From positions 1 to 64,000 of the forward strand of contig CALUWN010000008.1 in the NCBI GenBank assembly GCA_944324495.1: a stretch of 64,000 nt of DNA, read 5' to 3'. Numbering within the stretch: the first letter of the stretch is position 1; every line of letters starts with the position of its first letter. This document shows positions 44,251 through 62,688 of this stretch, one piece after another. This stretch comes from an uncultured Mucispirillum sp. (lineage in GTDB: Bacteria > Chrysiogenota > Deferribacteres > Deferribacterales > Mucispirillaceae). The notes beneath the pieces were generated by a model, which saw only the letters and a program-made list of their open reading frames with translations, made no database searches and was not told the DNA's origin. The position numbers and the translations under genes were made by a program.

Positions 44251-44883
44251 TTATTTTGCTACCGCAGAACTATCTAAATTTTTTGCTGCTTCATCAAGTT
44301 GAGCATTAATATTTTTAACTGTTTCTTCATTATTTTTTAATGGTATTAAAGCATCAGTACTAAATTCTGGTATTGTTTTTAACTCGCCTTTTGCAGGGGC
44401 TGCTTGTATATCTTTTTTACCAATAATACTGTTATTTTTCGCTGTTATATAGTAATCTTTATATGTATATTCATTTGTTTCCATATTTAATGCAACAACT
44501 CTGTATTTGCCGTTGTACATAAATGCACCACGAATATCTTTTGCTGTAAAGGTAAATTTATGCTCTTCATATGGGTTAAGCCCAACTACATAAGCTTCAT
44601 TTTGACCGTTTACAAAAAATGCTTCACGATCACCACCTATTGTATAATCAAAAAATTCTACACTTACACCAGTTTGCGAATTACAGTTCATTCCGTAAAT
44701 TGCCATATGAGTAGAACCACCTGATATATCTGGATTAATATTAAGGTTAGTATCTGCAAATGTAGCAGAGCAACCCATTGCTTCAAATGAAGGAACATAT
44801 ACTTCTTTCTCCTCTTCTGCACAACCGAAAGTTAATAAGCCAGTAAGTGCAACTGTTAAAAATAAAACAAGTTTTCTTTTCAT
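44251..44883 (-). CDS. Lipoprotein of the duplicated surface unit, copy 1
   Basis: A 210-residue lipoprotein with lipobox TFGC. A start at 44883 with GGAG upstream is better than the TTG four codons earlier. The mature protein shares layout with the lipoprotein at 45632-46234: a start EEK.VYVPS.EAMGCS, a central MNCNSQTGVSVEFFDYT, then GKYRVVALNMETNEYTYKDYYITA. This part may form a beta-sandwich. Its function is not known. It is probably cotranscribed with the proline-rich gene upstream. Confidence 0.72.
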   Translation of the reverse strand: MKRKLVLFLTVALTGLLTFGCAEEEKEVYVPSFEAMGCSATFADTNLNINPDISGGSTHMAIYGMNCNSQTGVSVEFFDYTIGGDREAFFVNGQNEAYVVGLNPYEEHKFTFTAKDIRGAFMYNGKYRVVALNMETNEYTYKDYYITAKNNSIIGKKDIQAAPAKGELKTIPEFSTDALIPLKNNEETVKNINAQLDEAAKNLDSSAVAK

Positions 44884-44972: not shown

Positions 44973-45314
44973 CTACCTTTTTGGTGGTGGTGGCGGTGCT
45001 GGCCTTACTTCAATATTATAGCTTGGTTTAGGTGCAGGCTTTACAACCACATGGTGTTTAGGCGGTGGTGGTGGAGCAGGTCTTACCTCCACATTATAGC
45101 TAGGTGCAGGTCTTGGCGGTGGCACAGGCCTGCCATATTTATCATAATATACAGGTGGCTGTGGCACTGGACGGCCATACTCATCATAATACCTAACCTT
45201 TTCCGCTGAATATGTTAAATTTGAAGCATATTGAACATAGTCACGCTTAACATCAGCAAAACTAACTGATGTAAACAATAAAAACATTGATAAGGTAAAA
45301 AAGATATATCTCAT
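44973..45314 (-). CDS. Proline-rich secreted protein, copy 1
   Basis: A 113-residue exported protein. The ATG at 45314 follows TGGAGGAAAC, with a signal peptide (MRYIFFTLSMFLLFTSVSFA). The mature part has YYDEYGRPVPQPPVYYDKYGRPVPPPRPAP repeats and a C-terminal series of SYN(V/I)EVRPAPPPPPK units, low complexity and basic. It may be a periplasmic or cell-surface spacer. Its promoter holds a G9 tract, so expression may switch. Confidence 0.72.
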   Translation of the reverse strand: MRYIFFTLSMFLLFTSVSFADVKRDYVQYASNLTYSAEKVRYYDEYGRPVPQPPVYYDKYGRPVPPPRPAPSYNVEVRPAPPPPPKHHVVVKPAPKPSYNIEVRPAPPPPPKR

Positions 45315-45339
45315 CTGTTTCCTCCATTTTATAATTGAC

Positions 45340-45370
45340 ATCATACCCCCCCCCGAGCCTTAAATGTCAA
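45340..45370 (-). promoter_or_regulatory. Promoter with G9 spacer tract (putative phase-variable)
   Basis: Reading the minus strand, TTGACA (45370-45365), ten bases, G9 (45354-45346) and TATGAT (45345-45340) form a sigma-70 promoter. Its 19-base spacer ends in the homopolymer. The optimum spacing is about 17, so loss of one or two Gs should strengthen it. This is the known design of phase-variable promoters such as Neisseria porA and opc. Confidence 0.75.
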
Positions 45371-45631: not shown

Positions 45632-46234
45632 TTAATTTAATGTAGCATTATCCACATTAACTGATGTTATATTATCAGCAGATTCTGCATTTTTATCTAA
45701 CACTGGAGCAGGTTTTGCTTTAAATGTACTTACTGCTGGCACTTCTTTGCTGTATGGACCATTTTCATATGCTGTTATTAAATATTGCTGCACTGTATAT
45801 CTTCTTGTTTCTAAATTTAATGCCATAATTTCATATTTACCATAATATATTCCATAGGTCTGTATGCTTCTATCTGTAGAAAAAGTAAACATTCCAGAAC
45901 TTTCATACCCATTAGAATACAGTGTAGTATTATATGTTACTGGTGTATTATTTACTGTAAAATATCTGTAATGACCAGGACAAGTATAATCATAAAAATT
46001 AACAGTTACATAAACATCTGAATTACATCTTAATTCTATGGCTTTTTCATTCGGAAATGTACCTGATACACTGTTATTTTTACCTAACTCTATATTACTA
46101 AAAAAACCACTGCAGCCCATATCATATAATGAAGGTACATATTCATCTTCTATAACGACTTTTTTATCTTTCTCAAACCAGTCAGCACAACCTGCTGTTA
46201 ATAAAAAAATAGATATTATAAATAATTTACTCAT
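45632..46234 (-). CDS. Lipoprotein of the duplicated surface unit, copy 2
   Basis: A 200-residue lipoprotein with lipobox TAGC. It is a diverged paralogue of the one at 44251: EYVPSLYDMGCSGFF, LRCNSDVYVTVNFYDYT, and GKYEIMALNLETRRYTVQQYLITA match in position and spacing. Both share a conserved Cys after the N-terminal linker (DMGCS) and another in the middle. Function unknown. It follows the proline-rich gene copy 2 by 26 bases. Confidence 0.72.
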   Translation of the reverse strand: MSKLFIISIFLLTAGCADWFEKDKKVVIEDEYVPSLYDMGCSGFFSNIELGKNNSVSGTFPNEKAIELRCNSDVYVTVNFYDYTCPGHYRYFTVNNTPVTYNTTLYSNGYESSGMFTFSTDRSIQTYGIYYGKYEIMALNLETRRYTVQQYLITAYENGPYSKEVPAVSTFKAKPAPVLDKNAESADNITSVNVDNATLN

Positions 46235-46260
46235 CAACTCTCCAAATATTATTAAAAAAA

Positions 46261-46605
46261 CTATCTTCTTGGCGGTGGTGGAGCTGGCCTTATCTGAATA
46301 TTATAACTTGGTGGTGGCGGAGCAGGATATCTATTCACATCATACCTGTTTGGCGGTGGTGGAGCTGGTCTTCTATCCATATGATGAGAATGGGGTGGGG
46401 CAGGACGCCTATCCACATACGGTCTTGGCGGTGGCGGCGGTGTCGGACGCCTGTCCACATGATGAGCAGGTGGCGGCGGTACAGGGTGGCCATGGTCATC
46501 ATAATATCTTGCTTGATTTACTGCATCAGTTAAATTTGCCGCATTAGCATTAACAGCAACTGCAAAAAATAAACAGGATATTGAAGCAAATAAAATATAT
46601 CGCAT
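46261..46605 (-). CDS. Proline-rich secreted protein, copy 2
   Basis: A 114-residue paralogue of the protein at 44973. The ATG at 46605 is preceded by GGGAGAAAG, with a signal peptide ending ANA. The mature region has RYYDDHGHPVPPPPAHHVDRRP, then repeated DRRPAPPP units and a final SYNIQIRPAPPPPRR. It is His- and Arg-rich, which could bind metal. It shares the gene order proline-rich, then lipoprotein. Confidence 0.72.
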   Translation of the reverse strand: MRYILFASISCLFFAVAVNANAANLTDAVNQARYYDDHGHPVPPPPAHHVDRRPTPPPPPRPYVDRRPAPPHSHHMDRRPAPPPPNRYDVNRYPAPPPPSYNIQIRPAPPPPRR

Positions 46606-61551: not shown

Positions 61552-62688
61552 AATATCACCTCATCTAAATCATAGACTGTATTTATTTTACCAGAAAGCA
61601 CACTAATAAATTTTGGTTTTTCAGAAAAAATTTTAATAATAGTTGGTCTTGAATCATCTATTTCTGAAGCCTGTAATATTGGCTTCATAGAAAACAAACT
61701 GTTGCTGTATGTGAAATTAGAATATTTCTCATTTAAATATTTTTTTGCAAGACGGGACATATATGGATAAGCTGATTCTGGTTTAAATTGACATTCATTA
61801 CAATTTCCCAAAAACTCACTTGAACAAAAATTATTATCACATTGTTTTTGGCACTGAAATGTTGGCAGGTCATTATAACTTGTTATATGTGGCGTAAATG
61901 TTACCGATGTAAGAGAGTGAAGCCCTGTTTTACCAAATGGCATAATAGAAAAAAATGGCCCATCCATTACAGTTATACCCACATCTTTTAATGCACCATT
62001 AGTATTGCAAAGTATTATTTCGCATAATTCATATTTTATCTTTAAGGGCTGAAAACCAAGCTTATTTATAATTTGGTTTACTGAAGCATATGTAGTATTT
62101 AGTATAAACTCTGTTTCAAATTTACTTCCATCTTTTAATGATATAATATATTTATCATTTTCTTGGATAATAGTATCAATATACGCATTGTATTTAATTT
62201 CCACATTTTTATATGTACTTATTTTACTATATAGATATTCTAATAGTAGTTTTGCATCATAAGTATATTCTTGTGTTTCAAATACACCATCACACATACC
62301 AGCATTAAAGTATTCAAGGGGATTTGTTTCCATACACTTTATGTTTGTATCTATGCAAAATTTTCTAAACTCTTTAGCATTGGTCCATGAAAAATTTGTA
62401 CTTGTTGCGTATATTTTTTTAAAGTTTTTTTCTATACAAAACCCATAATCTTCTACAAATCTTTCAAAATAATTGCGTGATTTTATAGCGGTAGAATAAG
62501 AACGAGGGTAATGATAACCCATGTGAACGCGTGCTTGATTTATATAAGTTGCACGCATAAAAGGCGCAGCATCTCGCTCAAGCACTAATATGCGCTTGCC
62601 AAATTCCCCCCCCCCTAATTCTTCCAATTAATTCGGCAGAATATAAGCCGTATAATCCTGCCCCAATAATTATTACATCGTAATTCAT
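61548..62688 (-). pseudogene. FAD-dependent oxidoreductase, split by a G10 tract (putative phase-variable, OFF)
   Basis: ATG at 62688 opens MNYDVIIIGAGLYGLYSAEL, a typical FAD-binding N-terminus with GxGxxG. It reads into a G10 tract at 62615-62606 and stops 12 codons later. The rest of the protein (GKRILVLERDAAPFMRATYINQARVHMGYHYPRS onwards, to 61548) is in another frame. With 9 or 12 Gs the two parts join as a 379-residue DAO-type oxidoreductase. A TTG at 62627 would otherwise start a truncated, cofactor-less protein. It is probably involved in sugar modification in the glycan cluster. Confidence 0.82.
62606..62615 (-). repeat. Homopolymeric G10 tract
   Basis: Ten consecutive Gs on the minus strand lie in coding sequence 74 bases after the ATG. 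In DNA this AT-rich a G10 run is exceptional. The only comparable tract seen here is the G9 at 45346-45354. Confidence 0.9.

Follow-up and report, generated by a model that had tools for sequence, protein, structure and literature searches.

Does the homopolymeric G tract in a promoter of an uncultured Mucispirillum sp. only fill the space between two promoter boxes, or does it act as a length-dependent switch for the genes behind it? The locus raising this question lies on the minus strand of the analysed stretch of DNA (the first 64,000 nucleotides of contig CALUWN010000008.1, in the following called the window), where a first-pass annotation had described a phase-variable promoter. Judging from the sequence, the site is likely to be a sigma-70-type promoter in which a hypermutable G tract determines the distance between the -35 and -10 boxes, and to belong to a reused module; very probably, the tract switches a secreted protein and a lipoprotein on and off at random. 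Mucispirillum reuses this module in two versions, in the following referred to as C-type (C9 within a 15-base spacer) and G-type (G9 within a 19-base spacer), mostly before lipoprotein genes.

Organization of the promoter and of the genes behind it

Read directly, the minus strand from 45370 to 45340 is TTGACA-N10-G9-TATGAT with a spacer of 19 bases, in exact agreement with the first-pass annotation, which had given the same boxes, the same 10 bases and the same tract (Table 1). The homopolymer is situated between recognisable -35 and -10 boxes, as in promoters of the porA type, and, equally to these, the promoter is positioned to drive a gene for a secreted protein, followed here by one for a lipoprotein. 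A distance of 25 nt separates the -10 box from the ATG at 45314, which is preceded by a GGAGG ribosome site. A perfect inverted repeat of 7 bases (TTGACAT, 45370-45364; ATGTCAA, 45341-45335) spans the promoter. A plus-strand promoter (TTGACA-19-TTAAAT at 45335) was considered and rejected, its -10 box being weak and no fitting plus-strand gene being situated nearby.

Table 1. Positions of the promoter elements and genes in the window
Feature	Position	Strand	Remarks
-35 box TTGACA	45365..45370	(-)	perfect consensus; kept in five G-type promoters
19-base spacer, TTTAAGGCTC + G9	45346..45364	(-)	N10 + G9 constant across all five G-type genomes
TTTAAGGCTC (within spacer)	45364-45355	(-)	
G9 tract (within spacer)	45354-45346	(-)	
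-10 box TATGAT	45340..45345	(-)	adjoins tract; TATGATG invariant in five G-type promoters
Proline-rich secreted protein, 113 aa	44973..45314	(-)	signal-like N-terminus; GGAGG upstream
Lipoprotein, 210 aa, lipobox LLTFGC	44251..44883	(-)	downstream of proline-rich gene
Paralogous proline-rich/lipoprotein unit	45632..46605	(-)	without any G/C tract upstream

Concerning the two genes, the proline-rich secreted protein matched no Pfam family; its orthologue in the sister genome G001 stands behind the same promoter. The lipoprotein gene follows in the same direction after a gap of 89 bp, in which no minus-strand terminator-like site was found; because of this gap without terminator, both genes are presumably co-transcribed, the lipoprotein gene probably being the second gene of an operon. 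The lipoprotein has orthologues (63% identical) in G001 and G006, shows no Pfam family above its cut-off, and yielded a structure model too poor for a fold search (mean pLDDT 48.6).

The lipoprotein of the paralogous unit exhibits 42% identity, over the aligned part, to that of the focal operon. The first-pass annotation had assigned to this unit a promoter with a 17-base spacer and no tract, and had regarded only one of the two copies as switchable. The absence of a tract is confirmed; the proposed promoter (TTGTCT-17-TACAAT, 46659-46631), however, agrees with the consensus at only 9 of 12 positions, a score that the region yields at chance rate (19 found, 19.7 expected from shuffled sequence), such that the supposed difference between the copies holds for the tract but leans on a weak promoter guess at the paralogue.

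Tract promoters in the genus

A search of the whole genome with the G-tract promoter pattern returned exactly one match, the focal site, and the reversed control none. In G001, the same operon possesses cTTGACATTTAATGGTCG9TATGATG at the same place; both species in which the focal tract is readable thus have G9 (one genome per species). In G006, a promoter of this type is absent from the locus, though its lipoprotein hardly differs from the one in G001. Elsewhere, the G-type module precedes a gene for a small hydrophilic protein in G003 and G008 and a lipoprotein gene in G004. The stretches strictly common to the core block of all five G-type promoters are CTTGACA and CG9TATGATG. By this comparison among genomes of the genus, the G-type module is a reused unit and not a chance run, and the earlier view that the tract forms part of the promoter is upheld.

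C-type promoters, searched with the pattern TTGACA-N-C7+-N-TANNNT, exist in nine of the ten genomes of the genus (3 to 13 sites each), and several are present in one sister genus, whereas the reversed pattern used as control gave almost none. The typical form is TTGACA-TT-C9-RTGA-TATAAT with a spacer of 15; the tract ranges from C7 to C11 and is C9 in 52 of the 69 sites. The remaining bases of the spacer total 6 in 51/69, whether split 2+4, 3+3 or 4+2, and this constant total at differing splits suggests selection on the total spacing, although many of the sites are related by descent. Phage carriage of the C-type promoter was considered as well, and was dismissed as the viral contigs contained no match.

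The genes behind these promoters were called automatically as the nearest start with a ribosome site. A lipobox is found in 46 of 66 of them versus 5 of 44 window genes (Fisher p ~7e-10), with lipoboxes called by a simple pattern and a control set that is small. Among the genes behind C-type promoters are those for an RCC1-repeat lipoprotein and for a weakly matching beta-barrel protein. In stretch L037 of the present genome, an RCC1-repeat lipoprotein of 577 residues stands behind a C9 promoter at 2993, and relatives are situated behind tract promoters in four other genomes of the genus.

Excess of G/C tracts

G/C runs of at least 9 bases number 2 in the window (~0.03 expected, first-order Markov) and 34 in the whole genome of 2.43 Mb (~1.2 expected). 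The other near-complete members of the genus contain 29-43 each (13 in one of them); elsewhere in the order, most genomes have 0-8. The sister-genus genome G011 possesses 64, the maximum of the family, and C-type promoters too. When tracts of at least 8 bases are counted, the present genome has 37, of which seven lie in the spacers of promoters whose -35 box is perfect; its tract promoters amount to at least seven, six of the C-type and one of the G-type. The tracts in these promoters would belong to a wider collection of G/C contingency tracts.

Roughly ten of the tracts in coding sequences of this genome stand one base out of frame. In the window, a G10 tract (62606-62615, minus strand) lies 24 codons into a reading frame whose N-terminus, judged by eye, is dinucleotide-binding-like (GAGLYG). 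This frame is one base off in the assembly (36 aa vs 379 aa), probably representing a translational phase-OFF state. Other stretches of the same genome (L031-L058) contain further coding G/C tracts, situated in genes for glycosyltransferases, two MBOAT acyltransferases, a formyltransferase, a type I specificity gene, a type ISP restriction enzyme and several lipoproteins.

The genome thereby exhibits the traits of a phasome, namely an excess of G/C tracts in surface and modification genes, some of them out of frame. Loss of MutS1, a trait of phasomes in some species only and not a strictly defining one, is not found here: the protein is full-length and scores over its NCBIfam cut-off. Lost mismatch repair was therefore rejected as the cause of tract instability, which would have to depend on tract length alone.

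Variation in tract length and alternative explanations

We infer slippage at the focal tract and an effect on transcription: slipped-strand errors at G9 would change the 19-base spacer by one base at a time, an altered spacer would alter the binding of RNA polymerase, and transcription of the genes for the proline-rich protein and the lipoprotein would change with it. Among the genomes compared (one per species, mostly draft assemblies), a lipoprotein promoter of G003 and G004 is identical over ~100 bases except for C9 in the one and C7 in the other, and of a second orthologous promoter, two genomes have the C8 form and another has C9. In other gut bacteria, copies with identical non-tract spacers carry 8, 9, 10 or 11 Gs within single genomes. 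The designation of the promoter as phase-variable thus agrees with its sibling promoters (C9 vs C7) and with promoters of this design in other bacteria (G8-G11), but the focal tract itself is G9 in both species. Bacilli and Clostridia of the rabbit gut, as well as Streptobacillus, frequently possess promoters with Gs in the spacer directly next to TATAAT, up to ~20 per genome.

Alternatively, the G/C run might be a fixed structural element, either as stiff, A-like spacer DNA or as the contact of a regulator, with a length that hardly varies. Such a fixed length is still conceivable given how common C9 is in the C-type family; G9 in five of five G-type promoters of the genus and the strongly conserved total spacing would fit equally well. 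We nevertheless consider it rather unlikely, as tract length is all that distinguishes certain orthologous promoters (C9/C7; C8/C9) and same-genome copies vary in other bacteria. Furthermore, the coding tracts standing one base out of frame in the same genome are what slippage would give, and tract numbers far above chance are restricted to the genus and a few relatives.

Two further explanations have very little probability. A repressor might bind the inverted repeat TTGACAT/ATGTCAA, with the tract setting only the distance of the half-sites; both arms are perfect and also present in the G001 orthologue, but the first is simply the -35 box, and the second is missing from the G-type promoters of G003, G004 and G008 as well as from the C-type family. 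A conserved operator palindrome was accordingly discarded, being confined to the orthologous pair of this genome and G001. Marginally less credible still is translational switching, in which the tract would lie inside a longer reading frame and shift it, as other tracts of this genome do. An ATG at 45344 does follow the tract directly and in frame with the gene; however, at the lengths tested no ATG-started frame crosses the tract, and the ribosome site and the start of the signal peptide are situated downstream of it, with the same layout in the orthologue.

Spacer length and direction of switching

Perfect promoters of the genus without tract have spacers that peak at 15-17 (62 of 99 distinct ones). 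On this scale, the C-type with its spacer of 15 stands at the lower edge and the G-type with 19 lies past the upper one; more Cs would thus be expected to strengthen the former, and fewer Gs the latter. It had been proposed at first that one or two Gs fewer would bring the focal promoter to a near-optimal spacing of 17-18 and to higher expression; the spacers of the genus favour fewer Gs, but perhaps two or three. Our leading expectation, to which we hold only loosely, is that loss of two to three Gs (spacer 16-17) would raise expression and that G9 represents a low or intermediate state.

In unrelated gut bacteria, G-type promoters centre at 18-19, and a spacer of 17 is found in 3/85 and 8/110 of them (overlapping samples). 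With 18-19 at the centre there, the 19-base spacer may already be a working state. The shortage of 17 may indicate a switch held off its optimum, such that a single slip matters; alternatively, the G run may shift the optimum of spacing. A broader scheme is possible, though we would sooner doubt than assert it: the genus would possess interchangeable slippage promoters, C9/15 being activated by gain and G9/19 by loss, two classes of lipoproteins would be pushed in opposite directions, modal lengths would lie off the optimum, and the design would recur in unrelated gut bacteria.

Comparison with known systems

Mucispirillum inhabits the mucus of the gut, and in mice it has been linked to intestinal inflammation (PMC5285517). 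If its lipoproteins switch randomly, the cells within a population would not all display the same proteins to host and phages, and strain comparisons, vaccines or antibodies based on single isolates, and colonisation studies would be affected. The reused module supplies nearly identical sites, few enough to be counted, at which the dependence of expression on spacer length may be studied; gut Bacilli and Clostridia commonly possess promoters of a similar kind. The literature searched, which excluded most subscription papers, contained no report of phase variation in Mucispirillum or its phylum, the Deferribacterota.

The organization of the focal promoter is most similar to that of porA and fetA in Neisseria meningitidis, in which a homopolymer lies between -35 and -10 and a change of its length is thought to alter sigma-factor binding (PMC2791445; PMC7864442). 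The likeness in sequence consists in the spacer homopolymer and the surface-protein genes downstream. Unlike in Neisseria, the module of Mucispirillum, which belongs to another phylum, is reused before many unrelated lipoprotein genes, as poly-C with a spacer of 15 and as poly-G with one of 19. Transcription of the meningococcal surface protein gene opc is controlled by the length of a poly-C in its promoter. Of the two precedents originally cited, porA is apt; the opc tract is placed over the -35 region by one review (PMC7864442), whereas the focal site has a separate, perfect TTGACA. In Treponema pallidum, a poly-G at the promoter of the outer-membrane-protein gene tprL confers length-dependent expression; according to the authors, this tract covers a portion of the -10 region and does not act through spacing (PMC7864442); the focal tract, in contrast, lies within the spacer.

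Concerning phasomes, 29 tracts are given for Campylobacter jejuni NCTC11168 (PMC4965091). Mucispirillum resembles Campylobacter and Helicobacter in being an AT-rich gut or mucosal bacterium with a few dozen G/C tracts of ~9 in genes for surface glycans, restriction-modification and surface proteins, but differs from them in the unusual share of tracts (7/37) that lie in the spacers of promoters with a perfect -35 box, and in the presence of MutS1. The mechanism proposed here is a known one, that of Neisseria porA; the novelty lies in the taxon, in how many of the tracts are borne by promoters, and in their reuse before lipoprotein genes.
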